The notes under the pieces were generated by a model. That model did not search any database. It saw only the letters and a program-made list of their open reading frames with translations, and was not told the DNA's origin. Shown here in pieces: positions 11,626 to 54,418 of a DNA stretch of 64,000 bases. The DNA comes from Intrasporangiaceae bacterium URHB0013 (GTDB lineage: Bacteria > Actinomycetota > Actinomycetes > Actinomycetales > Dermatophilaceae). The first letter of the stretch is position 1, and the number at the start of each line of letters is the position of its first letter. The translations under genes were made by a program, and so were the position numbers. The stretch is taken from contig JIBA01000015.1 in assembly GCA_000620545.1 (NCBI GenBank), positions 248,001-312,000 of the forward strand, given 5' to 3'.

Positions 11626-11678
11626 GGGTCTCCCTCGGTCGGTGTCGGCAGGCGCGTACCCAGTCGGCGGGTCGTCGA

Positions 11679-11749: not shown

Positions 11750-11802
11750 ACGGCGAACCACGGCGCGGGCGTCCCGGCCAGCCCGTCGATCCCGGCGTTC
11801 GG

Positions 11803-35712: not shown

Positions 35713-35742
35713 CCGCTCCGCAGTCGGTTCCCGGATGCGGGC

Positions 35743-37002: not shown

Positions 37003-38615
37003 TGTCCGGCCGCTTTCTTCGACTGCTGGAAGAGGAGGTAGGTCATCGGAGCCGAGAGCACGACCATGAGCAGCGCGTACGGCGCCGCGCCGGCGTAGTC
37101 GATCTCGCTGCTCTTGGCCCAGAACTCGGTCGCGAGGGTGCGGGTCCCGTTCGGCGAGAGCAGCAGCGTCGCCGTCAGCTCGTTGACGATGGCGAGGAAG
37201 ACGAGGGCCGCTCCCCCGGCCGCCGCCGGCGCCGTGAGGCGGAGCGTCACCCGGACGAAGGCAAGGAAGGGGCGGACGCCGAGGGCCTGCGCGGCCTCCT
37301 CGAGCTCCCGCGGCGCCTGTGCCAGCCCGGAGCGCAGGCTGACGAGAGCCCGGGGCAGGAAGAGCAGGACGTAGGCCGCGACGAGCACGACGGACGTCTG
37401 GTAGAGCGCCGGCAGGAACCGGATGCTCACGGTGACGAAGGCGAGGCCGACGACGATGCCGGGCATCGAGCTCGTGACGTAGTTGGACAGCTCGAGCGAG
37501 CGGGTGAACCAGCTGGTCCGGCGCACGGCGAGGAAGGCCATGGGGAAGGCGACGAGCGTCGTCGCCGCGGCACCGGCCATGCCGTAGAGCAGCGTCTGCA
37601 GCAAGGCCGGCACCAGCTCGTCGGGCGCCCAGATCTCGGAGCCGCCGAGCACCAGCCACCGCAGGACGAACCACATCGGCACCCCGACGGCGAGCACGAC
37701 GAGGAGCAGGAGCGCGAGCTGCGCCGGCACGTGGAGTCGGCCGAGCGGCATACGCCCCGGGGCTGCCTGGCCACCGGAGCCGATGCGGGAGTAGCGCGCG
37801 GTACCCCGGCTGCGCACCTCGGCCACGAGCAGGAGCAGGCACAGGACGACGAGCACGCTGGCGAGCATGTTGCCCGCGGCGCCGTTGAAGGTGGACTGGT
37901 ACTGCACCATGATCGCGGTCGTGAAGGTGTCGAAGCGGACCATCGCGAACGCGCCGTACTCCGCGAGCAGGTGCAGCCCGACGAGCAGTGCGCCGCCGGT
38001 CATCGCGAGCCGCAGCTGCGGGAGCACGACCCTGCGGAAGACCTGCCACGGGCCGAGCCCGAGCGAGGCCGCCGACTCCTCGAGCGACGGGTCGAGCCGG
38101 CTCAGCGTCGCTGCGGCCGGGATGTAGACGAGCGGGAAGTAGGACAGCACCGAGATGAGCACGCCCGACCAGAGACCGGCGAGAGACGGGACCGCAGACA
38201 CCCAGCCGTAGCTGTTGACGAATGCCGGGATGGCGAGCGGCGCTGCCAGCGCGAGAGCCCAGAGCTTGTTGCCGCGCAGACGGGTTCGCTCGACGAGCCA
38301 GGCGCCTCCCACTCCGAGGACGAGGCACAGGGGCACCGAGACGAGCATCAGCAGGATGGTGTTGAGCAGCAGCTCGCCCACGCGCGCCCGGAAGATCAGG
38401 CCCACCGCGGTGTCCCAGCCGGTGGCCACGGTCATCGCGATGACGTAGCCGAGCGGCATGAGCGAGAAGAGCGCGATGAGCACGGCGATGACCGCCAGCA
38501 CGGGCGGTCGCCGACGCCCGGGCGCCGGGCCCGGGCGGGTGCCCGGGCCCGGCGTGGGGGCCGTGCCGGTGCCGGTCGCTCGGTCGGCGCCCGGTGCGGT
38601 GAGGTTGGTGGTCAC
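36999..38615 (-). CDS. Ferric iron ABC transporter permease (FbpB-like)
   Basis: A 538-residue membrane protein of 12 or so spans made of two fused permease halves. Each half carries the EAA-loop-type sequence: [21 protein letters not shown] in the first and [21 protein letters not shown] in the second. The arrangement is that of FbpB/SfuB. The GTG start at 38615 lies eight bases after the binding-protein stop, so translation is probably coupled. It forms the membrane channel with the downstream ATPase. Confidence 0.92.
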
Positions 38616-38622
38616 CGGAGAA

Positions 38623-39684
38623 CTACAGCAGACCAGCCTTGGTCATCAGATCGGTGACCGTGGCGGAGTTGAGCTTGGCGGGGTCGACGGTCGGCGCCTG
38701 GAGGTCCTTCAGGGGCACGAGCGCCGGGTTCGCGGGCACGTCGGAGGCGATGGCGTACTCGAAGGACGTGCCCTTCTGCAGCACCTCCTGGCCGGCCTTG
38801 CCGGTGATGAACCTGAGGAGCGACTGCGCGGCCGCGGCATTCTTCGACGACGTGAGCACACCACCACCGGACACCGAGACGAAGGCGCCAGGGTCCTGGT
38901 TCTTGAAGTAGTGGGTCCCGACGTTGACCGAGTTCTCGCCGGTCTTCGCCTGGTCGCCGTAGAAGTAGTAGTGGTAGATCAGTGCGGTCTCGACCTCCCC
39001 TGAGTTGACGGCCTTCATCGCTGTGCTGTTGCCCTTGTAGACCTTGGCGTTGGTCTTCATCGCGGTCAGCCACTCGTTCGTGGCGGCCTCGCCCTTGAGC
39101 TCGAGCAGCGCCGAGACGATCGCCTGGAAGTCGGCACCCGACGGCGACGCGGCCCAGCGGCCCTTCCACTCGGGCTTGGCGAGGTCGAGCATCGAGGCGG
39201 GGAGCTGGTTCTCCTGCACCTTGCGCTTGTCGTAGACCAGGACCGTCGAGCGGGCGGCGATGCCGGTCCACTTGCCCGTCGAGGGGCGGAAGCCGGCGGG
39301 CACCTGGTCGAGCGTGGCCTTGTCGACGTCGGCGAAGAGGCCGGCATTCTCGACCTGCGTCATGGCGGGGCTGTTCTCGGTGAGGAAGACGTCGGCCGGG
39401 GACGCCTCGCCCTCCTGCACGATCTGGTTGGACAGCTCGGTGTCGGAACCGTTGCGCACGGTGACCTTGATGCCGGTCTGCTTGGTGAACGCGTCGACCC
39501 ACTCCTGGGTGAGGCTCTCGTGCTGGGCGTTGTAGACGGTGATGCTGCCCGAGCCGCTCGAGCCGTTGCCGGCGCTGGAGCCGCTGTCGGCGGAGGCGCC
39601 GGAGCCGCAGGCCGCCAGGACCAGGGCGCTGGCCGCGGCGACGGCGACGGCGACGCCGACGGAGGTGTGGGGGCGGGAGACCAT
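38623..39684 (-). CDS. Ferric iron-binding lipoprotein (FbpA-like)
   Basis: A 353-residue extracytoplasmic receptor. The signal peptide ends in LAAC, with Cys26 the lipidation site. The mature protein starts [20 protein letters not shown]. The paired tyrosines in [11 protein letters not shown] are the usual Fe3+ ligands of the class. It is the first gene of the operon, with a DtxR/IdeR-type box 58 bases upstream. Imports free or weakly chelated ferric iron under iron limitation (inferred). Confidence 0.93.
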
Positions 39685-39741
39685 GTGAGCTGCCTTCGTG
39701 ATCCGGAGGAGGCGCGTCGGTCTCGTCGAACGGCACGCCTG

Positions 39742-39760
39742 CTAGGTAAGGCTTACCTTA
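39742..39760. promoter_or_regulatory. DtxR/IdeR iron box
   Basis: CTAGGTAAGGCTTACCTTA is a 19-bp interrupted palindrome close to the known consensus TTAGGTTAGGCTAACCTAA. It lies 58 bases before the ferric-iron binding-protein gene. Repression by iron-loaded IdeR/DtxR is the expected mechanism. Confidence 0.88.
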
Positions 39761-39859
39761 CACAGGTCGGGGCCGTGCTCGGACCATCCGTTCGAGGCAG
39801 ACCGGCCACGCGCGGGCACGCTGTGCGGCGCACGGGCGGCGGCCCACTACGCTCGGGCC

Positions 39860-40207
39860 ATGCGCCAGACCATCGTCTCCCTCGTCGACGACCTCGACGG
39901 AAGCGAGGCCGCCGAGACCGTCAGCTTCGGGATCGACGGGGTGGCGTACGAGATCGACCTGTCGGCCGCCCATGCCCTCGCGCTGCGCTCGACGGTCGAC
40001 ACCTGGGTGACGCGGGCGCGGCCCGCCGGCGAGGAGCACCGCGGCGAGCCGACGCGTGTCACGCGCCTGACGACCGTGCTGCCGGCGGTCGGGGAGTCCC
40101 GCAACGCCCTCATTCGCGCATGGGCGGCAGAGACGGGGCAGCACGCCCCCGCGCGAGGGCGCCTCCCGCAGGCCGTCGTCAACGCGTACGACTCGGCCCA
40201 TCGGTAG
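39860..40207 (+). CDS. lsr2: Lsr2-type nucleoid protein
   Basis: A 115-residue histone-like protein. The N-terminal dimerisation half is VSLVDDLDGSEAAETVSFGIDGVAYEIDLS. The C-terminal DNA-binding half is ESRNALIRAWAAETGQ followed by RGRLPQAVVNAY, the RGR minor-groove hook. Such proteins bridge AT-rich DNA and silence acquired genes. The middle linker is typically basic; here it is short and mixed. It starts at ATG 39860 with little ribosome-site sequence. Confidence 0.9.
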   Translation: MRQTIVSLVDDLDGSEAAETVSFGIDGVAYEIDLSAAHALALRSTVDTWVTRARPAGEEHRGEPTRVTRLTTVLPAVGESRNALIRAWAAETGQHAPARGRLPQAVVNAYDSAHR

Positions 40208-40252
40208 GAGGTTGGGGGCGCAGGGGCGCTTGCTGACCGGGGCGCCGTGCGC

Positions 40253-40471
40253 TCACCGGGGCGCCGTGCGCTCGCGGTACTCCTGCTCCGTGACCTGCTT
40301 CCCGTGGACCCAGTACTGCACGGAGCCGTCCTCGGCCTCGACGGCAGGGCCGTCCAGACGATGCAGCCGCGCCGCGGTGAAGTACAGCGTGTCCCCTCGC
40401 GCCACGATCACCTTGTCGTAGCCGCCGGTGGGGTGGGGGGTTCCGCTTCTCCAGTCGGGCTGCGACGTCAC
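40253..40471 (-). CDS. 72-residue hypothetical protein
   Basis: Function not recognised. It starts at GTG with MTSQPDWRSGTPHP, then GGYDKVIVARGDTLYFT, LHRLDGPAVEAEDGSVQYWV and HGKQVTEQEY. The DGPAVE...YWVHGK pattern recalls the short DGPA repeats of proteins fused to MORN-like repeats. Converges on lsr2. Coding bias supports a real gene. Confidence 0.62.
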   Translation of the reverse strand: MTSQPDWRSGTPHPTGGYDKVIVARGDTLYFTAARLHRLDGPAVEAEDGSVQYWVHGKQVTEQEYRERTAPR

Positions 40472-40649
40472 GGTGGTGGTGGCTCCGGATCTGCTGGTGG
40501 ACGGTCAGGGCGAACACGACAGGCTACCGGTCGACCCGACCGGTATGAGGATGCGGCGACCAAGTCGCTCGCGACGACGTGACGCCGGCTCCCCGGGCGG
40601 TCGGGCCACCCGGGGAGCCAGCAGCGGGGCGAGTCGGGCCGTCCTGGCC

Positions 40650-41027
40650 TCACCGGCTCCGCTCGCCTCGAGGAGGGAGGCGCGGGCACGCCGGTCGGAG
40701 GCCGACGTGCCCCCGGGTCCGCGGCGGCGAACGCTCCCGACCGCGCGCGCGTGACCTCACTCCGCGCGTCGCCCGATGGGGCGCCGCACGTCCTCGCGCA
40801 GGGTCGGTGATGCCCCGCCGCGCCGGTCCGCGAGGCGCCGGCGGTGGCGGTTCCGGCGGGACTGGCGGGGGCCACCCCGCTCCGACGATCGCCTCGAACT
40901 CGGCCAGGAGCAGCTCGTCGTCGGAGCACACCAGGTCCATGAAGGCCGCGTCGACGTCGCCGGCGAGCTCCCGCTCATCGACCACCGGCTCCTCGAGGAC
41001 GTCAAGCCCCTGTAGCGCTGTGACCAT
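40650..41027 (-). CDS. Hypothetical protein with acidic N-terminus and Arg-rich tail
   Basis: The first 52 or so residues (MVTALQGLDVLEEPVVDE to DLVCSDDELLLAEFEAIVGAGW) look like a genuine acidic helical protein. The rest is Pro- then Arg-rich and may be non-native. ATG at 41027 and GTG at 41036 are both possible; GAGGG precedes them. It begins 14 bases after the Hsp20 stop and is probably co-transcribed. Function unknown. Confidence 0.5.
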   Translation of the reverse strand: MVTALQGLDVLEEPVVDERELAGDVDAAFMDLVCSDDELLLAEFEAIVGAGWPPPVPPEPPPPAPRGPARRGITDPARGRAAPHRATRGVRSRARGRERSPPRTRGHVGLRPACPRLPPRGERSR

Positions 41028-41041
41028 GGCCGGCACGTCCC

Positions 41042-41485
41042 TCAGGCGGTGATGGCCTGCCGGTCGTCGGTCTCATGAGAGATGGCGATCTTGCGTGGCT
41101 TGGCCCGCTCCGCCACCGGGATGGCCAGACGGAGGACGCCCGCCTCGTAGCCGGCCCGGATGTGCTCCGTGTCGAGGCTGTCGCCGAGCACCAGCTGACG
41201 ACTGAACACGCCCCTCGGCCGCTCGGCGGCGATGAGGTCGGCATCGCTCGCACGGGTGGGGCGCTCGGCCTTGACCGTGACCACGTTTCGCTCGACGTCG
41301 AGGTCGATGGACGCCGGGTCGACCCCGGGCAGGTCCAGCTCGACGTGGAAGGTGTCGCCGTCACGCCAGGCGTCCATCGGCATCGCCGAGGGCCGGGCCA
41401 GGGTCCCGTTCGATCCCAGGGCCAGCTGGGCCACGCGATCGAGCTCGCGGAAGGGGTCACGGAAAGGGTCGGTGCGCATCAGCAT
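41042..41485 (-). CDS. Hsp20-family small heat-shock protein
   Basis: A 147-residue alpha-crystallin chaperone that holds unfolding proteins. The crystallin domain spans about residues 35-130: [21 protein letters not shown], then [12 protein letters not shown] and the GVLRLAIPV motif (the GVL of the family). The start is the ATG at 41485, with GGAGGTG nine bases upstream; an earlier ATG at 41500 overlaps that site and is less likely. Divergent MerR/HspR-like regulator adjacent suggests heat-type control. Confidence 0.92.
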
Positions 41486-41525
41486 CGTCTTCACCTCCAT
41501 CGTGTCAGGTGATGCTCCACGGTGG

Positions 41526-41551
41526 CCACGATCGCATCTCACGATCTGTGG
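41526..41551. promoter_or_regulatory. Inverted repeat between hsp20 and its MerR-like neighbour
   Basis: Arms CCACGATCG and CGATCTGTGG (one extra base in the right arm) flank CATCTCA. It lies in the divergent promoter region between the small heat-shock gene and the MerR/HspR-like gene. It is not the classical HAIR sequence of HspR, so the assignment is tentative. Confidence 0.45.
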
Positions 41552-41634
41552 CATGCGCTGTAGATTTTTTGTAGCACCGATGGGACTCTGAGGGCAAGAC
41601 ATGATTTGCGCGAGCGCCGAAGGGAGGGCCGATC

Positions 41635-41949
41635 GTGACGGAAGACGCGCCGACCCCGGACGACGACCACGGCGTCTACGGCATCACGGTGGCCGCAGAG
41701 CTCGTCGGCATGGAGGTCCAGAGCCTGCGGCTCTACGAGTCCCGAGGCCTGCTCCGGCCCTCCCGCACGAGCGGCGGCACCCGTCGCTACAGCGCGAACG
41801 ACCTCACGCGCCTGCGCCGCATCGCCGCCCTCATCGCGGACGGCGTCAACCTCACCGGCATCCGGCTGCTGCTGGAGCTGCAGGACGAGAACCGGCGACT
41901 GCGCGCCCAGCTCGCTCGTCGACCCCACGGTGCCGCCTCTCGCGGATAG
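41635..41949 (+). CDS. MerR-family, HspR-like regulator
   Basis: A 104-residue MerR protein. The N-terminal helix-turn-helix and wing are [20 protein letters not shown] with [11 protein letters not shown] and [17 protein letters not shown]. The C-terminal coiled coil [11 protein letters not shown] would mediate dimerisation; no effector domain is present. A GTG start has GGGAGGG upstream. Size, no sensor domain and divergence from hsp20 all fit an HspR-type repressor. Confidence 0.86.
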
Positions 41950-42047
41950 GCCACGGACGCGGCCGACGCCGGGCGACCCACAGGGACGGCATCCGCCCGC
42001 TGGACCGTTCGCTGGTCCCCACCGGCGAAGCAGGCCACGATGGGGCC

Positions 42048-42332
42048 ATGGCGAAGTCTGGGGGCGGTCCGCGGTTCTTCAGACGACGCGGTGACGAGCT
42101 GACGGTCAAGGACGCCGAGGGACACAAGCTCCACGCCACCCTCGAGCGGGTCGACGCTGACAGCACGCACGAGGACGGGTCGTTCGTCATCGGCTACTGC
42201 AAGAGCTGCGACTGGACGGGCCCGGCGCGGCGGGCGCGGGACAAGGCTCGCAAGGACGCGCTCTCCCACGCGGATGAGTGCCCCAGCAAGGGCAAGGTGC
42301 GGCTCGGGGTGGGCGAGGACGAGCTCCGCTAG
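42048..42332 (+). CDS. Small protein with zinc-ribbon-like cysteines
   Basis: Function not recognised. The 94 residues are basic, starting MAKSGGGPRFFRRRGDELTV. IGYCKSCDWTGP supplies a CxxC and a later cysteine (ADECPSKGK) with nearby His. A small zinc knuckle binding nucleic acid is possible but unproven. Its stop lies 48 bases from the phosphopantetheinyl transferase stop, so the two converge. Confidence 0.62.
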   Translation: MAKSGGGPRFFRRRGDELTVKDAEGHKLHATLERVDADSTHEDGSFVIGYCKSCDWTGPARRARDKARKDALSHADECPSKGKVRLGVGEDELR

Positions 42333-42380
42333 TCCTTCGGGGCGTGCGCGGTCGAGGACACGTCAGGCGCGCACGTCAGC

Positions 42381-43064
42381 TCAGTGGCGTCGCACCCTGA
42401 CTTGGTGCGAATCATCCACGAGCGCAATGGCGCCCGCGCACCCGACCGGCGTGTCGATGTCGACGACCGTCACCGCCGGCATACCCGGGACGACGGCTGC
42501 ACAGACGCCGGCCGGCGGCGTGCGAAACGTTGTCGGGTCGACGCGCAGTCCCGGACCGAGAGCCTTGAGCACGGCCTCCTTGCGCACCCAGGCCGTGGCG
42601 TCGGCGACACGTGTCCCGCGCCCCTCGCGTTCGCCCGGGTGGAGCGCCACCCTCGCGAAGCCGGCGAACCCCGTCCTGTCGATCTGCTCGACGTCGATGC
42701 CGACCGGACCGGAGCGGCTCACCGCGAGGGCGACGAGGGGGCCGGTGCGACTCAGGGACAGATGGAGGCCCGGGTCGTCGAGGAGTCGCGGGCGTCCGTG
42801 CTGCCCGCCGCAGTCCGCACACGTGCGGTCGAAGCGCAGGGACTGCGGCGCTCGACCCAGGAGCCGGGCGATCTCGGACCGCGCCAGGTGGTGGAGGGCC
42901 AAATAGCTCCCCGCTGCTCCCCTGTCGTGGAACCCCCTCCATCGCTCGCGCTCGTGCTCGTCGAGCCCCAGCGTGGTCGGCGTCGGTTCTCCGGCGTCTG
43001 CTGCCGACGTGCCGCCGGGGAGGGACGTGTCGCGGACCCAGACGTCGACGAGCGCGTCAGTCAT
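42381..43064 (-). CDS. 4'-phosphopantetheinyl transferase, Sfp-like
   Basis: Activates carrier proteins of polyketide, peptide or fatty-acid synthesis. The 227 residues include FDRTCADCGGQHGRPRL (78-94), GIDVEQID with Mg2+ ligands Asp124 and Glu126, and WVRKEAVLKALG with Lys162-Glu163. The length is that of the Sfp group, not AcpS. The ATG at 43064 has no clear ribosome site. No carrier protein or synthase lies nearby, so its client is elsewhere. Confidence 0.88.
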   Translation of the reverse strand: MTDALVDVWVRDTSLPGGTSAADAGEPTPTTLGLDEHERERWRGFHDRGAAGSYLALHHLARSEIARLLGRAPQSLRFDRTCADCGGQHGRPRLLDDPGLHLSLSRTGPLVALAVSRSGPVGIDVEQIDRTGFAGFARVALHPGEREGRGTRVADATAWVRKEAVLKALGPGLRVDPTTFRTPPAGVCAAVVPGMPAVTVVDIDTPVGCAGAIALVDDSHQVRVRRH

Positions 43065-43201
43065 CCACGGCCACGGGTCCAGCGGTCCACGGCTCAAGGA
43101 TCGGGGCGTCGCGTCGCTGCCGCAAGGTCGGAGAGCGCCCCGAACGGACCTGTCTCCAGTGGACTCGAGATCCGGGCGGTGCCAGCCAGCCTCGCTGGGC
43201 G

Positions 43202-43315
43202 CTAGCCGCTCCTCGTACGGGCGCGGGTGTCGTCCCCCAGCCAGGCCTCGACGCGTTGGAGTACCACCATCAGCACCAGGCCGCCGAGTGGTGTCGTGAG
43301 CGTCAGCAGCGTCAT
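43202..43315 (-). CDS. 37-residue single-span membrane peptide
   Basis: A small ORF starting MTLLTLTTPLGGLVLMVVLQ, then RVEAWLGDD and a basic end. AAGGAC lies eight bases before the ATG. One hydrophobic segment and a positively charged tail suggest an inner-membrane peptide. It is upstream of and divergent from the stressosome operon start. Function is unknown. Confidence 0.6.
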   Translation of the reverse strand: MTLLTLTTPLGGLVLMVVLQRVEAWLGDDTRARTRSG

Positions 43316-43418
43316 GTCCGGTCCTTCCGTCTGGGACCCGTGCAACGTGGGTCACCAGAGACGACGTCCGTCGGCGGCGGCCATGACGTGGTCGGCGAGC
43401 CGTGGGTAGGCTTTCGAG

Positions 43419-44501
43419 GTGAGCGCAGCCGAGCGCGCCGGGCAGACGCCCGGTCACAGCGCGGAGGATGTCGCGGACCTGATGCCCATGGTTCGTCGGA
43501 TCGTCCACGCCCGCGTCGGCGCCCACCCGTCGGCGGACGACCTCGTCCAGGAGACCCTGACGCGCGTGCTCGCGGCCTCCGCCACGATCGAGCCGGGCAT
43601 GCTGGAGCCGTATGCCATCGTCACGGCCCGCAACGTCGTTGCCTCCATGTGGCGCGATGCCGACCGCAAGCGGCGCAACCAGCACCGCGTCCTCGACCTC
43701 AGCACGCCCGATGCCCCCGAGACGCAGATCGTCCAGGGCGAGGAGCAGTCGGCGATGGCCACGGCGCTGGCGCGGCTGAGCGAGCGCGAGCGCCGCACCC
43801 TGCTCGATCATGAGGTCGCCGGCACCGACACGCGTACGCTCGCGGAGCGTGAGGGCAGCTCGGCGGGTGCCGTGGCCGCCCAGCTCAACCGGACCCGCGC
43901 GCGCCTGCGCGTCGAGTACCTCCTGGCCCTCGAGCAGGTGCAGCCGCCGACGGAACGATGCCGCCCCGTCCTCATCGCGCTCAGCAGTGGTGACCAGCGC
44001 CGTCAGCGCGAGGTCCACGCCGCCCAACACCTCCTCGAGTGCGACCCGTGTGCACGGCTGAGCCGGCCATTGCTGGAGCGCGGCCAGCAGCGTGACGACA
44101 CCTTGCGCATCCCGGTGACCGGGGACCCTGACATCGTCGCCGCCCGAGTCGCTGCCCGCGAGCTCGCTGCGCGCCTCCGGTTCGGCACGAGCGACCTCAC
44201 GCTCATCGCGACGGCGGTCTCGGAGGTGTGCCGCAACATCGTGCGGTTCGCAGGCTCGGGCGAGGTGGTCGTGGAGCTGCTCGAGACGCCGCGACGCGGC
44301 ATCCGGGTCGTGGCCCGCGACGGAGGGCCCGGCATCCCCGACGTGGAGCGGGCGCTCGACGACGGGTTCAGCACGTACGGCGGACTGGGGCTGGGGCTGC
44401 CCGGTGCGCGTCGGCTCATGGACGAGTTCGCCATCGTGAGCGAAGCCGGGCACGGGACGACCGTGACCATGACGAAGTGGGAGAGGACGAACGATGGATG
44501 A
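43419..44501 (+). CDS. ECF sigma factor fused to zinc motif and RsbT-type kinase
   Basis: A 360-residue fusion. Residues 15-95 form an ECF-like sigma region 2: ADDLVQETLTRVLAAS, then RNVVASMWRDADRKRRNQHR. Residues 115-165 form region 4, with LARLSERERRTLLDHEVA as the helix-turn-helix start. Residues 181-213 hold Cys181, His200/His204, Cys208 and Cys211, resembling a zinc-binding anti-sigma motif. Residues 230-355 are a GHKL kinase of the RsbT class: N-box Glu269/Asn273, DGGPGIP (301-307), GGLGLGLPGARRLMDEF. A GTG start is used. It overlaps RsbR. The fusion would tie promoter selection directly to RsbT partner switching. Confidence 0.9.
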   Translation: MSAAERAGQTPGHSAEDVADLMPMVRRIVHARVGAHPSADDLVQETLTRVLAASATIEPGMLEPYAIVTARNVVASMWRDADRKRRNQHRVLDLSTPDAPETQIVQGEEQSAMATALARLSERERRTLLDHEVAGTDTRTLAEREGSSAGAVAAQLNRTRARLRVEYLLALEQVQPPTERCRPVLIALSSGDQRRQREVHAAQHLLECDPCARLSRPLLERGQQRDDTLRIPVTGDPDIVAARVAARELAARLRFGTSDLTLIATAVSEVCRNIVRFAGSGEVVVELLETPRRGIRVVARDGGPGIPDVERALDDGFSTYGGLGLGLPGARRLMDEFAIVSEAGHGTTVTMTKWERTNDG

Positions 44502-45411
44502 CCGACTCGAGGAGCGCCCGGACCTGACGGCGAGCGCTGCCGACCTGGCGCTGCAGCACCCGGCGGACGGGGAGCACCTGCTCTCGCAGCTCGTGGCCCA
44601 CCTGCGCGAGCACCGGACCCGTCTGCGGCACGAGTGGGCCGAGCGCATCCAGCAGGCGCATCTGCTGACGGCGATGACGCCGCAGGAGGTCTCGGCCGAG
44701 ACCACGTCGGTCTACGACAACTACGTCGAGGTGCTCGAGACCGGCAGTGTCGAGGCTCTCCAGCACTACGCACGTGACCTCTCCGAGCGGATCATCCCGC
44801 GCGGCGTCGAGACGCACGAGGTCGTGGGTATCGTGCTGCTGCTCCGCGACGTGCTGGCCCGGTCGCTCTTCGAGAAGTACCAACGCGACTTCGCGCTGCT
44901 CAACGAGGTGCTGGACGCGTACGAGCCGGCCGCGAACCGGATCGCCAACACGGTGGCCGTGAGCTTCGTCGACGAGCGTGAGCGAGTCATCCGTCAGCAG
45001 CAGGACGCCATCCGCGAGCTGTCGACGCCGGTGCTGCCGGTGCGGGAGCGCCTGCTCATCCTGCCCATCATCGGCGTGCTCGACAGCGAGCGCGCCCGGC
45101 AGCTGACCGAGCAGCTGCTGACCGGCATACGCAGGCATCGGGCGCGGGTGGTCGTCATCGACATCACCGGCTCGCCGGACGTCGACGAGTCGGTGGCGAA
45201 CCACCTGGTGCAGACCGTGGACGCGTCACGTCTCATGGGTGCGAGCGTCATCATCACCGGGCTGTCGCCCAAGATCGCGCAGACGCTGGTCACCATCGGC
45301 GTCGACCTCGGCAAGATGAACACGATCGGCGACCTGCAGGGGGGCCTCGAAGAGGCCGAGAGGCTGCTCGGCTACACCGTGACCCGGAAGGGAGGCAGCA
45401 CCAGCTCGTGA
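44494..45411 (+). CDS. rsbR: RsbR-type stressosome protein
   Basis: A 305-residue protein with an N-terminal RsbR-type sensory domain (about 25-165, helical) and a C-terminal STAS domain (about 176-290). ELSTPVLPVRERLLILPIIG leads into the domain. IDITGSPDVDE carries Thr225 where the RsbR phosphorylation threonine is expected. It would form the stressosome core with RsbS and hold the RsbT kinase. It overlaps the sigma-kinase fusion by eight bases and RsbS by GTGA. Confidence 0.9.
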   Translation: MDDRLEERPDLTASAADLALQHPADGEHLLSQLVAHLREHRTRLRHEWAERIQQAHLLTAMTPQEVSAETTSVYDNYVEVLETGSVEALQHYARDLSERIIPRGVETHEVVGIVLLLRDVLARSLFEKYQRDFALLNEVLDAYEPAANRIANTVAVSFVDERERVIRQQQDAIRELSTPVLPVRERLLILPIIGVLDSERARQLTEQLLTGIRRHRARVVVIDITGSPDVDESVANHLVQTVDASRLMGASVIITGLSPKIAQTLVTIGVDLGKMNTIGDLQGGLEEAERLLGYTVTRKGGSTSS

Positions 45412-45821
45412 ACGGCGGACCGGCACTGGTGTCCATCCTGCGGCAGGGATCGAACCTGATCGCCTCGGTCCACACTGCCCTCGACGACTCGCAGCTCGTC
45501 CGGTTCGAGCACGACCTCGTCGAGCAGATCGGTGAGCACCGGTCGCAGGGGGTCATCATCGACGTGGCCGCGCTCGACGTCATCGACTCGTTCGCCGCCC
45601 TGACGCTGCGCCGCATCGCCGAGATGGCGCGTCTGAGCGGTGCGCGGACGGTCATCGTGGGCATCCCACCCGACGTGGCCTTCACCATGGCGCGACTGGG
45701 GATGGGCACCGCCGAGGTCCCGACCGCCCTCGACCTCGAAGAGGGGCTGCGCCTGCTGGCGGAGCACGCCACGGGCAGCCACCCGACCCACTCTCCCTCC
45801 GGCGCGGAGCCCGACTGGTGA
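45408..45821 (+). CDS. rsbS: RsbS-type stressosome scaffold
   Basis: A 137-residue STAS protein. VAALDVIDSFAALTLRRIAE includes Ser61, corresponding to the serine that RsbT phosphorylates in RsbS. IVGIPPDVAFTMARLGM is the later conserved part. A short Ser/Pro/His tail follows the domain. The GTG overlaps the RsbR stop. Phosphorylation of Ser61 by the upstream kinase domain would release that kinase, and here the attached sigma factor. Confidence 0.9.
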   Translation: MNGGPALVSILRQGSNLIASVHTALDDSQLVRFEHDLVEQIGEHRSQGVIIDVAALDVIDSFAALTLRRIAEMARLSGARTVIVGIPPDVAFTMARLGMGTAEVPTALDLEEGLRLLAEHATGSHPTHSPSGAEPDW

Positions 45822-46123
45822 CCGGATCAGGGGCCCGGTCGCCGCTGGGCGACCTGATGCAGGACTACCGCACCACGCTGATGCGCTTCCTGCCCCGGCG
45901 GGACGAGGCGGCGCGTGAGTCCGCCTACGAGCTGGGACGCCGTGCCTTCGCCGCCGGCATCAGCCTGCTCGACGTCTGCCGGGTGCACCACGAGGTAGCT
46001 CTGGAGCTGTTGGGTGATGCCGTGCCGGAGGACTTCCTGGACATCACGAGGAGCGCGGGCGAGCTGCTGCTGGACGTCCTGGCCGCCTACGAGGTGACCC
46101 ACCGGAGCCTGCTCGAGCCATGA
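45818..46123 (+). CDS. Stand-alone RsbU N-terminal-type domain
   Basis: A 101-residue, all-helical protein starting at a GTG that overlaps the RsbS stop. It matches the N-terminal RsbT-binding domain of RsbU by pattern: MQDYRTTLMRFLPRRDEAARESAYELGRRAFAAGISLLDVCRVHHE. The PP2C phosphatase that normally follows is absent; the reading stops at 46123. It may be a competitive partner for the kinase domain. No similar protein is named. Confidence 0.8.
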   Translation: MTGSGARSPLGDLMQDYRTTLMRFLPRRDEAARESAYELGRRAFAAGISLLDVCRVHHEVALELLGDAVPEDFLDITRSAGELLLDVLAAYEVTHRSLLEP

Positions 46124-46335
46124 CGTCCGGCGAACGCCTTGACCCCGCCTCCATGACGCGAGACCGGCTTGTCGCGTCTCGGCTGCACCACCGGCCGCGT
46201 GCTGGGACCGCGCGGCACCACGGGTCAGACCGGCGCCCACTCCCGCGACTGCCACGTCATGCCGGACGGGGAAGGTCTCTCCAAGGGTGACCGACCGCCC
46301 ACGAGGCCGTCTGCACCGATCAAGGAGGTCTCACG

Positions 46336-46500
46336 CTGAAGCTCACGACCGAGCTCTACGCAACCGGAGCCACCCGGCGACGGCTGCGACCTTCGGGCTC
46401 GTGCCTGCGAGCGCTGCATCCACGGCGCACCCGTGCACGGCTCCACCACCTGCTCGGTCTCGGACCGACACCTCGCCCCGCTGCGGGGGCCCGGGCCTGA
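46336..46500 (+). pseudogene. Possible relic of a DUF1905-like ORF
   Basis: An AAGGAGG ribosome site precedes, by seven bases, a CTG codon followed by KLTTELYATGA, which resembles the start of DUF1905/YdeI proteins. The frame then turns Arg-rich and stops at 46500, so only the first 12 codons look genuine. A CTG start or a decayed ATG would explain it. Poorly supported. Confidence 0.25.
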
Positions 46501-46512
46501 TCCCACCCGGGC

Positions 46513-46551
46513 AACGATGGCGCCGACCCCTCCCTCGTCGGCGCCATCGTT
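46513..46551. terminator. Strong hairpin downstream of the stressosome operon
   Basis: A perfect 15-bp stem has arms 46513-46527 and 46537-46551 and a nine-base C/T loop. No gene overlaps it; flanking sequence is non-coding apart from the possible relic. It lies about 390 bases past the last operon gene and 150 before the MerR gene, and most likely isolates the two units. Confidence 0.75.
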
Positions 46552-46663
46552 CGTGGCGCTTCGACGCGTCTGGTCAGGGACATCCGGCACGCCGCCGTCG
46601 ATGCGAGTGGGGCGACCGTCCCGGCCCCCTCCAGACCGACGACGGTGGGCGCCGGCCTCGGCT

Positions 46664-46701
46664 TTGACTTCAAGTGCTCGAAGTTCCTACCGTCGAAGAG
46701 G
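46664..46701 (+). promoter_or_regulatory. MerR-type promoter, leaderless
   Basis: A TTGACT -35 element (46664-46669) and TACCGT -10 element (46688-46693) are 18 bases apart. The inverted repeat ACTTC-N8-GAAGT (46667-46684) lies in the spacer, as in MerR-regulated promoters. The GTG at 46701 begins about eight bases after the -10 element, so transcription probably starts at or next to the start codon. Confidence 0.72.
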
Positions 46702-47162
46702 TGAGCACTCGCACGACTCGACGCACGTACACGATCAAGGAAGCAGCCACCCTGACCGGCCTGCCGGCCAGCACGCTGCGCTACTACGAGACGATCGGGG
46801 TGATCCCGCCCATCGGCCGTGGGGCCAGCAGCCGGCACCGTGTCTACGACGAGGACGACCTGGACCAGCTGATGTGGGTCGCCTGCCTCGCCGCCACGGG
46901 CATGTCCGTCAGCGACATGCGGCGCTACGTCGCGAACGGCCGGCTCGGCGCGGGCGCCGCGGGCGAGCAGATCGAGCTGCTCACGGCCCAACGACGTCGC
47001 CTCGAGCTGGAGGCGGAGCACATCGCCCTGCGCCAGCGCTACGTCGGGCTCAAGGTCGACTACTGGCACGCGGTCGAGGCCGGCGACACCGAGCGAGCGG
47101 ACCTTCTGTCCGGCGAGGCCCGGGCACTCGCCGACGCGCTCAAGCGAGCCAAGGAGCACTGA
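46701..47162 (+). CDS. MerR-family regulator
   Basis: A 153-residue MerR protein. The helix-turn-helix and wing are YTIKEAATLTGLPASTLRYY and ETIGVIPPIGRGASSRHRVY, with DDLDQLMWVACLAATGMSVS. A C-terminal coiled coil and short helical tail follow. The GTG at 46701 agrees with the leaderless promoter; the longer reading from 46674 would start inside the -35 region. It precedes a cupin and an alcohol dehydrogenase, which it likely activates along with itself. Confidence 0.88.
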   Translation: MSTRTTRRTYTIKEAATLTGLPASTLRYYETIGVIPPIGRGASSRHRVYDEDDLDQLMWVACLAATGMSVSDMRRYVANGRLGAGAAGEQIELLTAQRRRLELEAEHIALRQRYVGLKVDYWHAVEAGDTERADLLSGEARALADALKRAKEH

Positions 47163-47265
47163 CTGCACCGACCCACCCCGCGACGCGACCGCGGCGAGCC
47201 CTGCCAGTCCGCCCGCCGCATACGCCATCACGAATGCCTTCCACGCAGCCAAGGAGAGAGAACCC

Positions 47266-47676
47266 ATGCAGATCACCCGCAGCTCGTCGGACACCGTCAA
47301 GGGCCCGTCCGACTGGTTCACCGGTGACGTCTACATCGACGCCGTGGCCGCCGCGCCGTCGCCGTCACGCATGACCGCCAACCTCGTGCACTTCATGCCG
47401 GGGGCCCGCACGCACTGGCACCGCCACCCGCTCAGCCAGACCGTCTTCGTCACCGAGGGTGTCGGCCTCTGCCAGCGGCGCGGCGGCCCCGTCGAGGTCA
47501 TCCGCCCCGGTGACCGCGTCCTCTTCGAGGCCGATGAGGAGCACTGGCACGGCGCCACGCCCAACCGTCTCATGGTCCACCTCGCCATCAACGAGGGCGA
47601 CGAGGAGCACGACGTCGTGCACTGGCTCCAGCCCGTAACAGACGACGACTACACAGCCGCACCCCTGCAAAGCTGA
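47266..47676 (+). CDS. Cupin-domain protein
   Basis: A 136-residue single-domain cupin. [20 protein letters not shown] is cupin motif 1 with metal-binding histidines and glutamate. [20 protein letters not shown] is motif 2. AAGGAGAG precedes the ATG. Homologues adjacent to alcohol dehydrogenases and MerR regulators are common, from memory; the substrate is unknown. Cytoplasmic; likely co-transcribed with the dehydrogenase. Confidence 0.88.
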
Positions 47677-47740
47677 CCGGTCTGCGTCCGCAGGCCCCCT
47701 ACCGAGACCCGAACCACCACCTTCGAAGGAGCACCACCAC

Positions 47741-48781
47741 ATGCGCGTGAACGCCTACGCCGCCCCAGCCGCCGGCCAACCGCTGGCACCCACCACCATC
47801 GAGCGCCGAGAGGTCGGACCCAACGACGTCCTCATCGAGATCCAGTACGCCGGCATCTGCCACTCCGACATCCACACCGTCAACGGCGACTGGGGCCCGC
47901 AGCCCTTCCCCGTCGTGCCGGGCCACGAGATCGTCGGCACCGTGACGTCCGTCGGATCCGACGTCTCCCGCCACCAGGTCGGTGACCGTGTCGGTGTCGG
48001 CTGCATGGTGAACTCCTGCGGCGAGTGCACCAACTGCCGCAACGGCGACGAGCAGTACTGCCTCGAGGGCATGGTCGGCACGTATGCCGCCACGGACCGT
48101 GACGGCACCACGACCCAGGGCGGCTACTCCACCCACGTGGTCGTCGACGCCGACTACGTCCTGTCCGTCCCCGACGGCATCGACCCGGCCCAGGCCGCGC
48201 CCCTGCTGTGCGCCGGCATCACCACCTACGCGCCGTTGCGCAAGTGGGGTGCCGGCCCGGGCAAGAGGGTCGCCGTCGTCGGGCTCGGCGGTCTCGGCCA
48301 CATGGCCGTGAAGATCGCCCACGCCCTGGGCGCCGAGGTGACGGTCCTGTCCCAGTCGCTGAAGAAGCAGGAGGACGGCCTGCGGCTCGGGGCCGACCAC
48401 TACTTCGCCACGTCGGACCCCAGCACGTTCGAGCAGCTCGCCGGCCGGTTCGACCTCATCGTCAACACGGTCAGCGCGGCGATCGACGTCGACGCCTACC
48501 TCGGCCTGCTCGCCGTCGACGGGACCCTGGTCAACGTCGGGGCCCCGGCCGAGCCGCTCAGCCTGAACGTGTTCTCGCTCATCGGTGCCCGCCGGTCCTA
48601 TGCCGGCTCGATGATCGGCGGCATCGCGCTGACCCAAGAGATGCTCGACTTCTGCGCCGAGCACCAGCTCGGCGCCGAGGTCGAGGTCATCTCCGCCGAC
48701 CAGGTCAACGAGGCATACGAGCGCGTGCTCGCCTCGGACGTGCGCTATCGCTTCGTCATCGACACCGCGACGCTCGCCTGA
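47741..48781 (+). CDS. Zinc-dependent alcohol dehydrogenase, YahK-like
   Basis: A 346-residue NAD(P)-dependent aldehyde/alcohol dehydrogenase. Catalytic zinc ligands lie in GICHSDIHT and GHEIVG, and the structural site in [15 protein letters not shown]. The Rossmann motif is [11 protein letters not shown]; the Ser-Gln-Ser after it (VLSQSLKK) favours NADP. It resembles cinnamyl-type and YahK broad-range dehydrogenases. GAAGGAG precedes the ATG. A hairpin terminator follows. Confidence 0.9.
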
Positions 48782-48850
48782 CTCGTTCCTGCCCACCGGC
48801 AGGCGGACCGTCGACCGGTAGCACGTCGCCGGCCGCGCCATGACGTAGCA

Positions 48851-48886
48851 GGGCCTCTGGCCAGCATCACTGCTGGCCAGAGGCCC
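48851..48886. terminator. Bidirectional terminator
   Basis: A perfect 16-bp stem (48851-48866 and 48871-48886) with a TCAC loop is followed by TTCT on the plus side. It lies between the converging alcohol dehydrogenase and multicopper oxidase genes and would serve both. Confidence 0.9.
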
Positions 48887-48936
48887 TTCTGCGTCCTCGG
48901 CACGTGACCTCGCCGAGGGCAACCGCGCGTCCGGCG

Positions 48937-51900
48937 TCAGCAGGTGCTGCCGTCGACGCGCAGGATCGGACAGGTCGGCGAGGCGAACGGCAGGACCCGC
49001 TGCAGGCCCCAGACGCCGGCCGCGGTGAACGGCCGCCTCAGGTCCCCGTAGAAGTAGTCGCCCGCCGCCGCGCGGGTGCCCCCGGCACCACCGACGACCT
49101 CGAGGTCGAACGACTCCCACGGCCCCATCCCCTGGGCGGTCGTCGAGTCGGAGTCGCCCGTGTGCCGATCCTGCGGCCAGCGCAGTCCGCCGAGACCGAA
49201 CACGTGCGCGCTCTCGCTCCCCGGCGCCACGAGCACGTGCACGACCTCCGGGTCGCCGGCGTATGCCGTCAGCAGCGGCACCTGCCCCGGGTCACGGAAC
49301 GCGGTGGGCCCGTCGCCGGCCGGCGCCACCCGGTAGTTGACCAGGGACCGGCCGGTGCGGGCGTTCGTCGGGTAGGGCATGAAGTCCTGGCCGATCTGCG
49401 GGTCGTCGTCGGCGATGAGCACCGTGAAGTCCCGGTAGTCCTGTACTTCCGCCCCGGGCACGTGCACGATGACCTGGGCCCCGATGTCGCGTGCGAGACC
49501 GGAGACGGGGTCACTGAACTCCGTGCGGAGCCCCTCGACCGAGGAGGCCGGAGCGACGACGAGCGCACCGTAGAGACCGTCCTTGGCCGACTCCGGCGAG
49601 GCGAGGTCGCTGATGACGGCCGTGCCGAGCCGGTCGGTCGGGGCGTAGTACGTGTAGGTGCGCACGGCGCCCGGGGCCACGTTCTGCTCCGGCGCGAAGC
49701 CGACGTCGACGCCGCCGGAGTCGGAGGCGCGGTCCAGCTTGCCCACCGAGAAGCCCACCGCGGTGGTCAGCAGGTTGGTGAGGCGCACGGAGACGCACTC
49801 GCCGGCCACGACGTGCAGCACGAGCGGCACCGGCTTCTTCAGGCCCTTCTTGATGTTCTGCACGTCACCGTCCGGCACGAACGCCGTGCGGTTGCCGTTG
49901 AGGTCCTGCGACTTGTCCATGGCGCTCAGCGCAAAGCTGCGCGTCGGGGCAGAGGTGGGGCAGGGACTCTCCTGCGGCTCTGCCGTCGGAGGCAAGCCGC
50001 CCGTGGACGCCGGGGGGACGTACGAGGTGGCGGGCGACCCCACCCCGGGCAGGGGAAGGAGGTCGTCGACCGCGCCGGGCAGGATCCGCACGACACCCCA
50101 GGCGCCCTGCTGGGTGTGCAGCTCGACCCCGTTCGCGTAGAGGTAGTCACCCGGCCGCATCCGCATGTCAGGTGCGGAGCCGTTGAAGATCAGCGTGAAC
50201 TTCTCGCTGATGCCGTAGTGGATGCTGTCGATGATGGAGCCGGCCGGAGTCGGGCCCGAGCCGTCGTCGTGCGTGTAGCGCGGCTCCAGCAGGGTGCGGC
50301 CGCCCTGCAGGTGCAGGGTGTCGACGGTCGGTGAGATGCTGATGGTGCGCACGACCAGCGGGTCGTCGGGATAGAGCCGAGGCAGGGGTGTCACCGGGTC
50401 GCCGTAGGTCCACGAGCTGAACTGATGGGCGGTGTCCGGACGGTCGGCGAGCGGGTTCGCCTTGAGGTTGAGGGTGGAGTAGTCCCCGGAGTCGTTGTCG
50501 TTGATGGCCCAGAGGGCCAGCTCGCGGAAGCTCCCCTCCACGAGTCCGGGTGACAGGGTCGAGTTGGTGTGGATGTCCACGAGGGTCCCCGAGTCGACCT
50601 CGGCGCCGGTCTTCGGGTCGTGGTAGGTCGAGCCCCATGGCTCGACGATGAGCTGCCCGACGAGTCCGTGTCCCCACCCGTGGATGCCGTCGACGTGGTC
50701 GTGCCAGAAGACGTTGTCGAGCAGCGCGTCGGGATACCAGCGGTACTGGATGAACTCGGTTCCGGCGTACTCACCGGCAGCGTGGCTCGTGAGGATCGGG
50801 GTGTCGAGCGTCACCGTCTTGTTGGTCTGGTCCACCGCGACGACCTGGTGGATCTCGATCGACTCGAGTCCCTCCCCCACCGCGAGGAAGGGCCTCGTGG
50901 CCTTGCCGTTGGCGTCCTTGCCGACGAACTTCGCGACATCGGACAGGGGCAGCGTGCGGGTCCCGCGCGCGACGGCGTTGCGCAGCCGCGGGTCGAGGAT
51001 CCCGTACGGCCGCACAGAGTGCTCGAAGGCGAAGCCGACGCTGACACCGTCGGACCCCTGCACGTCGAACTGGACGTGATGGATGTGCATCGAGGTCTTG
51101 GAGACCTTGTCGAAGGCCGAGGCGTCGGGGATCTCGTTGGTGAGCGTGATCGCGACGCAGTCACCCTGGTTGGCGCGGATCGCCAGCGGATCCGACCGCT
51201 TCGGGTCGTTCAGCACCGCTTGCTTGTCCTTCGCCAGGACGAACAGCTTGCCTTCCGGGTCGGACAGGGTCGGGGTCCGCTGGACCGTCTTGCCGATCGT
51301 GACGACGTTGAACGTGCGCACCCGCCGTCCCTGCGGGCAGAGTGCGTCCTTGCGATTCGCCCACGGACTGGTCGTCGAGGACGTCTGGTTCGTGGTGTTA
51401 CCGAGCCACGGCGTGCCAGTGTGGCCTGCGGGCGTGAAGGGGGGCCGTTTTCCGATGTGGGTGCGGAACATCGGGTACGCCGGGCGGCCGTTGACCGGGT
51501 TGAACAAGATCGTGGGCCGGCCGCTCACGATGCGGTTGGCGTCGACGAGCAGCAGGTTGGGCTGACCCGCGAGGACCTTCGGAGAGTCGGGGAAGACCGT
51601 CGGGTCGGCGGGCGCCCCCAGATAGAGCTGCTGCGAGCCCGTTCCGGTCACCATCCAGTTCCAGACGGTGGCGTCCTGCCCGTTGCCCGGGATGCCTGCA
51701 GGGGGCAGCTGGGGCCTGATCCACGAGTCCAGATTGGTCGCGGTGATGGTGGTGCCGTTGATGGTGCGCCCGATGAGACCTCGGGAGTCGACCGCCGTGG
51801 GCGGTGCCTTGCGGTCGGCGATGGGCACGAGGTCCGGCTGGCGCGTGTCGTAGACGCGCCAGACTCCCCACATGCCGGAGTTGTAGTGCTTGGCGATGTG

Positions 51901-53604: not shown

Positions 53605-53614
53605 GATCTGTCCT

Positions 53615-54265
53615 TCAAGGTGTGCTCGGACGCAGGCCCGCCGATGGCGGGCCCAGAGTGGCCGACGCGGTCGGCGTCACGGTCGGCGTCGGAGACCCGG
53701 CGGCGCCCGGGTCCTGTGGTTCGTCGTGTGCGTGACCACCACGGCCGTCCGTGGTCGACACGTAGAGCAGCGGGACGGAGCGCTCCCCGGCGCCCGAGCC
53801 CAGCACGATGTGAGCGCCGTTGCGCGGCACCACGTAGGAGAGCGAACCCTCGAGGTGGGAGTGCGCTGCCAGCCGACCCCGCAGGGGCAGGGATCCGGCG
53901 ATCGGTGCGGTGGCGGAGGTGGTCGGCGCGCCCGCGGCGCTCGCCGTCAGACCCGTCGCGTCGTAGGTCGTGTCCGAGTCCCCGGCGGTCACCGTCACGG
54001 CGACCCGGATGAGGGCCCGGTCATTGCTGACGAGGCTCTGGACGCCGTGGGACATCCCGCCGAGGTCGGCGTCGGACAGACCGGTCACCTCCAGCGCCTC
54101 CGAGACCCGGAACGTCACGTCGCCGACCGTCAGGCTCATCGGGTCGGGTGGCTCCGCCAGCATCGCGTGCGCGCGCCAGCCACCGAGGACCACACCGGCG
54201 GCGACGATGATGCACAGCATCAAGGTCCGGCCCGCACGGGCAGCAGTAGGTGTCGCAGTGCTCAT
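53615..54265 (-). CDS. Secreted or anchored protein with His/Met-rich stretches
   Basis: Function not recognised. The 216 residues have an N-terminal membrane segment (about 14-34: LMLCIIVAAGVVLGGW). An extracytoplasmic domain contains SLTVGDVTFRVSEALEV and HSHLEGSLSYVVPRNGAHIV, and a Pro/Thr tail ends it. GGMSHG and GGHAHDE could bind copper. It is directly upstream of the oxidase gene with ten bases between, so it is likely its partner or metal-delivery protein. Confidence 0.72.
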   Translation of the reverse strand: MSTATPTAARAGRTLMLCIIVAAGVVLGGWRAHAMLAEPPDPMSLTVGDVTFRVSEALEVTGLSDADLGGMSHGVQSLVSNDRALIRVAVTVTAGDSDTTYDATGLTASAAGAPTTSATAPIAGSLPLRGRLAAHSHLEGSLSYVVPRNGAHIVLGSGAGERSVPLLYVSTTDGRGGHAHDEPQDPGAAGSPTPTVTPTASATLGPPSAGLRPSTP

Positions 54266-54418
54266 GAGTCCAGCGTGACGGGCCCACCTTCGACCTACCT
54301 TTTGCTGGCGCCGGCGCCGGGCACGGTCCCGGCAGCCCCGGCGCGCAGGCCATTTCGGCTCACGAGGCAGCCCAGTCAATCTCGCCCGCACCGGGGGCGG
54401 CCCGCCTACGCTCGGAGT

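Follow-up and report, generated by a model that had tools for sequence, protein, structure and literature searches.

Stressosomes are widespread, but detailed knowledge of how they act on transcription comes mostly from the RsbU-RsbV-RsbW-SigB relay. In Bacillus subtilis, the kinase RsbT phosphorylates RsbS, leaves the stressosome and binds RsbU via the dimer of the RsbU N-terminal domain (RsbU_N) and the linker. Other stressosomes have phosphatases, GGDEF proteins or histidine kinases as their outputs, according to PMC12143880 and PMC9237108, and sigma factors of the extracytoplasmic function (ECF) type with fused zinc and membrane segments are described as ECF48, ECF52 and ECF53 in PMC8999054. 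Here we describe a locus from Intrasporangiaceae bacterium URHB0013 (4.57 Mb genome in 17 contigs), located within a stretch of 64,000 nucleotides (positions 248,001 to 312,000 of contig JIBA01000015.1), and this whole stretch is referred to as the window. In this locus a sigma factor, a zinc-type segment and an RsbT-class kinase form one protein, whose gene is followed by rsbR, rsbS and a gene for a stand-alone RsbU_N (Table 1).

Taken as a whole, it is likely that the operon encodes a stressosome and that its output is the sigma factor borne by the kinase; if true, a sigma factor within the stressosome kinase would be the shortest route from a stressosome to transcription. An earlier note on this DNA, made from its letters alone, knew of no described system with this arrangement, in line with the full-text literature that was searched, the Casas-Pastor 2021 ECF classification and the Pane-Farre stressosome reviews lying outside it. 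No description of a sigma-RsbT fusion was found in this literature. PMC8103513 mentions neither RsbT, HATPase, stressosome nor ATPase, and no such fusion is described in the accessible parts of PMC8115616, PMC3944199 and PMC9237128. A sigma domain is named among the abbreviations of the operon figure of PMC9237108.

Sigma factor, zinc-type segment and kinase in one chain

Table 1. Features of the operon and its surroundings (positions are those of the window)
Feature	Position	Strand	Remarks
Sigma, zinc-type segment, RsbT fusion gene	43419..44501	+	GTG start, 360 aa, single open frame
Sigma region 2, residues 20-83	43476..43667	+	Pfam PF04542 (Sigma70_r2), E 6.6e-10, above cut-off
Sigma region 4, residues 113-163	43755..43907	+	PF08281 (Sigma70_r4_2), E 5.4e-5
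Putative ZAS-like zinc anti-sigma segment, residues 181-222	43959..44084	+	C-x22-H-x3-C-x2-C
RsbT-class kinase domain, residues 227-355	44097..44483	+	HATPase_c_2 at 240-353, E 1.2e-14, above cut-off
rsbR, N-terminal sensor-like domain and STAS	44494..45411	+	STAS E 1.8e-13; PDB RsbR 9o4h E 7.7e-37
RsbR Glu232	45187-45189	+	Aligned with Thr at position 209 of a Listeria RsbR chain
rsbS, single STAS	45408..45821	+	STAS E 4.3e-12; PDB RsbS 6jhk E 1.8e-22
Stand-alone RsbU_N gene, 101 aa, without effector domain	45818..46123	+	PF08673, E 6e-10
Candidate promoter CGTCAT-N17-GTCGTC	43360..43388	-	30 bases 5' of the operon, directed away from it
Small gene, 37 residues, hydrophobic stretch	43202..43315	-	First frame led by a ribosome site, 44 bases behind the 43360..43388 motif
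Hsp20 and MerR-type regulator genes, divergent	41042-41602, 41635-41949	-, +	1.5 kb upstream of the operon
1555-residue protein	48937-53604	-	Multicopper oxidase matches at 258-353 and 488-586

As the earlier note had claimed, an ECF-like sigma factor and an RsbT-class kinase are encoded in one chain by a single open frame, with matches to Pfam and NCBIfam models. The N-terminal half scored 63.0 bits with the NCBIfam sigma70-ECF model (cut-off 42.9) and holds sigma regions 2 and 4 only, as is typical of ECF sigma factors; region 4 of the window protein reached 23.2 bits with Sigma70_r4_2, slightly under the Pfam cut-off of 25.7. Residues D41, Q44, E45, Y65 and T69 of region 2 were invariant in alignment A2. 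The search for both sigma regions and HATPase_c in a single chain, which the note had suggested, found Sigma70_r2, Sigma70_r4_2 and HATPase_c in all 56 aligned relatives at E values up to 1. PhyR_sigma2 matched weakly in 41 of these 56, as would suit a PhyR-like decoy, at which the sigma-like domain binds an anti-sigma factor elsewhere and thereby frees another sigma factor that owns the promoter motif described below. We consider such a decoy highly improbable, since Sigma70_r2 scored far higher than PhyR_sigma2 in the window protein (39.1 vs 20.4 bits), region 4 is conserved, and no receiver domain was matched in the fusion protein by Pfam at E values up to 1.

The C-terminal part showed 47% identity over 131 amino acids to B. 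subtilis RsbT, a sequence that was not drawn from a database, which agrees with the kinase class proposed at first, and its residues E269, N273 and D301 were invariant across the 56 aligned fusions. As the domain belongs to the HATPase_c_2 family and its nearest solved folds are SpoIIAB and RsbW (Foldseek with the fusion model returned these two and ECF sigma factors), it might instead act like them, binding the sigma part of the same chain in cis as an anti-sigma domain until RsbS, as anti-anti-sigma factor, frees that part. This is improbable, as the identity to SpoIIAB and RsbW chains was 24-30%, the NCBIfam models of RsbW and SpoIIAB stayed far under their cut-offs (51.0 vs 135 and 26.1 vs 145 bits), RsbR is present, and the chain has a segment of its own with one His and three Cys (CHCC). 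In the AlphaFold2 model of the whole fusion (mean pLDDT 86.7, pTM 0.54) the domains are well defined and their mutual arrangement is not; the modelled RsbT part starts with a strand (228-233) followed by a helix (236-250) carrying R243 and R247. These are the equivalents of RsbT R19 and R23, which are contacts to RsbU according to PMC12143880, and both are invariant in 56/56 fusions. The host genome has 20 HATPase_c_2 matches, 9 of them over the cut-off, so cross-talk is possible; no second RsbT or RsbR was detected in it at E 0.001.

Between the two halves, the earlier note had listed Cys181, His200, His204, Cys208 and Cys211 as a motif that looks like a zinc-binding anti-sigma segment. C181, H204, C208 and C211 are invariant in all 56 aligned fusions, and His200 was ruled out as a ligand, residue 200 being His in just 3 of them. 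The pattern, H-x3-C-x2-C with an upstream Cys, which we take to be the ligand pattern of RsrA, was also present in 42/42 rows of alignment A4. The AlphaFold2 model gives the segment four helices. The best match in a PDB profile search was 3hug_B, presumably RslA, with a non-significant E of 0.24, and the fold search with the isolated segment gave no meaningful match. The family zf-HC2 was absent among the families listed (25/31) for the 56 fusion members and matched one of the 42 rows of alignment A4 at E 0.15. The ligand pattern, the 3hug_B match and isolated weak NCBIfam matches to RseA-, ChrR- and further anti-sigma models weakly suggest that the segment may be an anti-sigma domain. The CHCC cysteines are the sole Cys common to all 56 fusions, and one might take redox or zinc status, sensed via this set, as the main switch, with the stressosome merely placing or tuning the protein. 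We see little chance of this, as the kinase motifs and RsbS Ser61 are equally invariant.

A full-length fusion was found in 26 of the 186 family genomes, the own one included, and a 27th genome (G147) has an RsbT piece only. Within the genus, 7 of 9 genomes, again with the own one, hold it, the two misses being 100% and 74% complete. In even samples, at which E values up to 1e-40 or 1e-45 were used and the own genome and family were included, fusions were detected in 9/396 genomes of the order (a tenth match was the sigma-zinc part alone), 4/394 of the class and 4/396 of the phylum. The fusion is widespread yet patchy; the genera include Terrabacter, Pedococcus, Phycicoccus, Knoellia, Humibacillus, Janibacter and Geodermatophilus, with Blastococcus, Modestobacter, Cellulomonas, Nakamurella, Marmoricola and uncultured Nocardioidaceae as further holders. 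In a scan of named genomes the best 80 of 334 relatives were kept, giving 78 loci, and 71 of them (L064-L134), many from genomes that are also in the family set, hold the fusion. The full-length fusion in 26/186 genomes and the single frame in 69 of the 71 loci rule out a frameshift or an assembly artefact; in L127 and L134 the fusion is split between two frames, and in L113 it is a single frame cut by the contig end.

Wherever the contig was sufficient (67/67 loci), the order fusion, rsbR, rsbS, RsbU_N was kept on one strand, so the fusion does stand beside rsbR and rsbS in other genomes, where the earlier note had proposed to look. The other four loci were outside this count: L077, L086 and L113 end before the fourth gene and L127 is cut inside RsbU_N. 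For L133, which has two rsbS genes, the one closer to the fusion was counted; a second rsbS frame lies about 0.6-0.7 kb 3' of the RsbU_N gene in this locus (11380-11811) and in L126 (10333-10872). Two loci of 3.4 kb, L011 (1501-1893, genome G006) and L031 (1501-1872, genome G147), have lone RsbT-like domains whose identity to the kinase part is 62% and 76%, respectively; neither locus shows a match to rsbR, rsbS or RsbU_N, and the domains are possibly remnants or spare partners. In Nocardioides pelophilus, a fusion piece at the contig start (L135, 6-945) has RsbU_N directly next to it, and no rsbR or rsbS match was found within this 8.6 kb locus.

RsbR, RsbS and a stand-alone RsbU_N

The four genes, all on the + strand, overlap end to end by 8, 4 and 4 bases. 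The naming of the two genes coupled to the fusion as RsbR and RsbS was correct, as both match solved stressosome chains. The phospho-acceptor Ser61 of RsbS (codon 45588-45590) was present in 69/69 relatives, a count that leaves aside L133 as well as L113, which lacks rsbS. At the second RsbR threonine site, Thr205 in B. subtilis, the 70 relatives have Glu (55), Gln (9), Ala (4), Val (1) or Gly (1) and never Ser or Thr, and the two threonine sites of B. subtilis RsbR (T171 and T205) are not both retained. Glu or Gln at this site may act as if it were permanently phosphorylated. The Listeria sites, which we take to be numbered T175 and T209, offer a comparison: at the Thr205-equivalent position the solved Listeria chains have Glu (9o4h), Thr (9o3o) and Ala (9o3z), differences that presumably represent engineered variants. 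Glu232 was also considered as a replacement of Thr171, which was ruled out by the Listeria RsbR alignment, placing it at position 209, the equivalent of Thr205. The first phosphorylation site of RsbR is Arg in 14 of the 70 relatives.

The profile of the fourth protein matched RsbU_N of B. subtilis RsbU (1w53) with an E of 4e-5, and RsbU Glu24 is kept as an invariant E30 in 52/52 sequences. The protein stops at 101 amino acids, with no PP2C phosphatase domain behind RsbU_N; in 65 loci at most 39 residues (median 5) follow the RsbU_N match, with 11 in L133 and 10 in L134. The host genome has this one copy of RsbU_N only, its three SpoIIE phosphatases lie on other contigs and none has RsbU_N, and no RsbU-type phosphatase was found in the genome. 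Since no RsbU enzyme was found and the sole RsbU_N stands alone, release of the kinase would release the sigma factor, as proposed in the earlier note. The conserved RsbU_N gene had escaped that note; it points to a second partner still being involved, so that "one step" may be too simple a description. The presence of RsbU_N in 67/67 loci indicates that it matters.

What RsbU_N does could be the opposite of activation. With the same coupling, it would be a brake: much as a small anti-sigma adaptor does, it would bind the sigma-RsbT protein after release and either hold it inactive or terminate the response. In favour of a brake, RsbU_N is the fastest-evolving of the four genes (median identity to the window proteins 45%, vs 71% for the fusion, 72% for RsbS and 89% for RsbR), has no effector and is encoded last. 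Elsewhere, RsbU_N marks targets that are switched on by RsbT (PMC12143880 and PMC9237108), and we regard the brake as rather unlikely.

A candidate promoter beside the operon

The surroundings of the operons were compared in 72 loci, a 20 kb piece of the window being counted along with the 71 named fusion loci. Small proteins of two unrelated families, here called secA and secB, were found near the operon in 24/72 and 18/72 loci, respectively (tblastn, E up to 1e-5). They never share a locus, occur on either side and on either strand, and are both absent from the piece of the window. Their hydrophobic starts make them look secreted, and they have no Pfam match at E 0.05. Examples are the genes at 10761-11294 in L132 and 10742-11041 in L102, with 40 further loci.

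CGTCA-N19-TCTT was found exactly in 22 of 29 regions upstream of these genes (13 of secA and 16 of secB), against 3-4 in shuffles of either set. The position matrix built from 40 sites resembles a promoter with CGTCAT(G) at -35, 17 bases and GTCTTCA at -10, often followed by GTG. Its strict form, [CG]GTCAT-N17-GTCTTC, matched 36 times (35 loci) in the 518 kb of sequence up to 2.5 kb from the operons, and twice in the other 584 kb of the same loci. Spacers of 13-22 bases other than 17 gave a single near match, with none at 14-16, 18, 20 and 21, and 95 permuted patterns gave a mean of 0.03 near matches with a maximum of 1. No strict match was found in 29 loci with a free RsbT (104 kb). A looser motif, with [GC]TC[TG]TC at -10, matched 58 times near and 3 times far, the near ones being in 47 of the 72 loci, the window included. 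Among the 43 loci outside the training of the motif, 20 have [CG]GTCA-N17..19-GTCTTC within 2.5 kb.

The motif also accompanies the fusion across the 186 family genomes, as CGTCAT-N17-STCTTCA was present in 16/26 genomes with a full-length fusion vs 10/160 without (Fisher p 3e-10, which ignores kinship), a comparison that is partly circular as the pattern was learned from some of the same genomes. In total, it matched 34 times, vs 3 for the reversed pattern, and in each of the 16 genomes with both fusion and motif a match lies no more than about 3 kb from the operon. The genes that start 29-95 bases behind the motif were secA (15 times), secB (10 times) and PRC-barrel/DUF2382 genes (3 times; L077, L090 and L111); the remaining sites are followed by other small proteins or have no clear gene behind them, and some first frames behind sites are antisense to RsbU_N and meaningless. 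Behind some sites are small proteins with an AAVLxERAxxRR-like motif (L073 10607, L082 7530, L094 7512, L097 10612 and L109 7515), and the one in L097 has a sub-threshold DUF2383 match only (E 0.022).

In the window, the candidate promoter upstream of the fusion gene is the top match in 35001-55000, and its score of 21.7 is slightly under the lowest training score of 22.2. The same divergent site, with GTCGTC at -10 and 26-36 bases 5' of the fusion, is shared by the Terrabacter group (the window, L064, L067, L068 and L078). The product of the small gene behind it has similar starts in L064, L068 and L078 and no Pfam match. A second Terrabacter site, 3' of the operon and before secA, was found in L064, L065, L067, L068 and L078, and the window is without it. 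In the window's genome, the looser CGTCAT-N17-STCKTC, a pattern picked after the Terrabacter sites were known, had 5 matches vs 0 for the reversed control. Consensus scans of 43100-46800 revealed no sigma-70 promoters or terminators.

We infer that the motif is a promoter read by the fused sigma factor. Its place beside the operon fits a working sigma factor, which strengthens the reading of the fusion as the stressosome output and weakens the PhyR-like decoy, as the motif accompanies the fusion operon. The candidate promoter would also offer a direct reporter, by which the output of a stressosome could be read with four genes and one promoter placed in a laboratory host.

Proposed mechanism, origin and comparison with known systems

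By analogy with the B. subtilis pathway, the RsbR-RsbS shell of an unstressed cell would hold the RsbT part and so keep the sigma part from RNA polymerase. Upon stress, the kinase part would phosphorylate RsbS at Ser61 and the entire sigma-RsbT protein would be let go, bind core RNA polymerase and read the CGTCAT-N17-GTCTTC promoters, with many small secreted proteins and some PRC-barrel stress proteins as targets. Two further points are less certain: acting in cis, the zinc-type segment would keep the sigma part closed, and the freed protein would dock on the RsbU_N dimer by the first RsbT helix (R243, R247), which could bar its return to the stressosome and help to open the sigma part. Because this helix is close behind the zinc segment (about 14 residues in the AlphaFold2 model), binding of RsbU_N or RsbS may act on that segment. 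Resetting the system would require a phosphatase encoded elsewhere.

A more specific version, which we offer tentatively, is an output of inverted polarity, in which the effector would have changed sides, from RsbU to RsbT. RsbU_N, separated from its enzyme, would then be a stand-alone activator that docks on the first RsbT helix and thereby detaches the cis zinc anti-sigma segment from the sigma part. The sigma part would then read CGTCAT-N17-GTCTTC before genes of small surface and stress proteins, and a redox input may come in through the zinc segment. The stand-alone RsbU_N raises the question of what the binding of RsbT brings about with no enzyme behind it.

Several points weigh against the sigma factor as the stressosome output. 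The motif is tied to the sigma factor by place and co-occurrence only, in loci that are related, so that the motif counts are not independent. The strict motif is absent from the window's own genome, and 4 of the 5 looser matches there, those outside the operon, have no gene led by a ribosome site close behind. The 71 regions upstream of the operons share no motif on the coding strand (top 9 vs 8 in shuffled sequences), so autoregulation is not general; in L107 the motif lies some 100 bases 5' of the fusion gene, so such control is possible in single cases. In the proteins, the equivalent of RsbR Thr171 is Ser or Thr in only 48/70 relatives, the position of RsbT N24 is Glu in 49/56 fusions, RsbU Tyr28, another RsbT contact, is not conserved in RsbU_N, and the RsbU linker helix (RsbU 82-112) is absent from the stand-alone protein. 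Neither profile nor fold searches gave a significant match for the zinc segment. RsbX was not recognised, the three SpoIIE proteins elsewhere in the genome being larger, and the neighbours of the relatives were not searched with an RsbX model.

Apart from the operon and the small gene before it, the Hsp20 and MerR-type genes are likely a heat-shock pair. The 1555-residue protein showed no further matched stretch at E 0.001, and its remainder looks repeat-like by eye.

As for its origin, the sigma-zinc half of the fusion (to about residue 221) was also found in proteins with a transmembrane-like (TM-type) stretch and an unknown C-terminal part (L040, L041, L044, L045, L055, L136-L138 and L152-L158). 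The hydrophobic stretch starts 70-78 residues after the first Cys in 11 of the 15 TM-type frames, at 45 residues in L152 and beyond 250 in L155-L157, so not all are surely membrane anchors. The highest 19-residue hydropathy was 1.14 in the fusion vs 1.68-2.35 in the 15 TM-type frames, and the fusion has no transmembrane helix behind the zinc segment of the kind that defines ECF48, ECF52 and ECF53. In four near-full-length TM-type frames Pfam shows sigma regions only. Several TM-type proteins have an ADEGFWV-like motif, and PRC-barrel-like frames, judged by eye, adjoin three of the genes (L040, L044 and L045). TM-type relatives as users of the promoter motif were not supported, with 1 strict match in 14 loci (88 kb).

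In a tree of the sigma-zinc region, one branch (95/88; 95% of 200 bootstraps) separated 60 fusions from 14 TM-type rows, one of two identical rows (L138 and L158) having been removed. An earlier tree, at which two unrelated ECF rows served as outgroup and the fusions needed 2 changes (0% of bootstraps with 1), was discarded because these rows had branches of 8-10, and the final tree is without them. RsbR is 75-81% identical to the RsbR of free-RsbT operons in ten loci (L046-L054 and L056). The simplest history would be that a sigma-zinc unit was joined once to the free RsbT of an rsbR-S-T operon and that the effector behind RsbU_N was lost. Related sigma-zinc units joined to a membrane-like part or to RsbT illustrate the swapping of signalling modules.

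Among known systems, PhyR also has a sigma-like domain joined to a signalling domain, whereas the fusion lacks the receiver and its sigma regions look intact. ECF48, ECF52 and ECF53 share with it a zinc-type segment after sigma2-sigma4 in one chain, but here the RsbT kinase replaces the membrane and extracytoplasmic part. Actinobacterial operons with a free RsbT (rsbR-S-T; L046-L054, L056 and L159-L163) have homologous RsbS and RsbT; unlike the stand-alone protein, their three scanned RsbU_N proteins (L049, L161 and L163) are joined to PAS or GGDEF, and in the free-RsbT loci L139-L141, 187, at least 529 and 158 residues, respectively, follow the RsbU_N match. Systems in which RsbT controls GGDEF proteins or histidine kinases likewise give a stressosome another output, with the output domain on the RsbU_N side there and on the RsbT side here. 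Compared with the B. subtilis and Listeria stressosomes, RsbR and RsbS match solved chains, the RsbT motifs and the RsbS phospho-serine are kept and RsbU_N lies next to them, while RsbT bears an ECF sigma factor, RsbU is cut to its N-terminal domain, the gene order is T-R-S-U and RsbR has Glu at the second Thr site.

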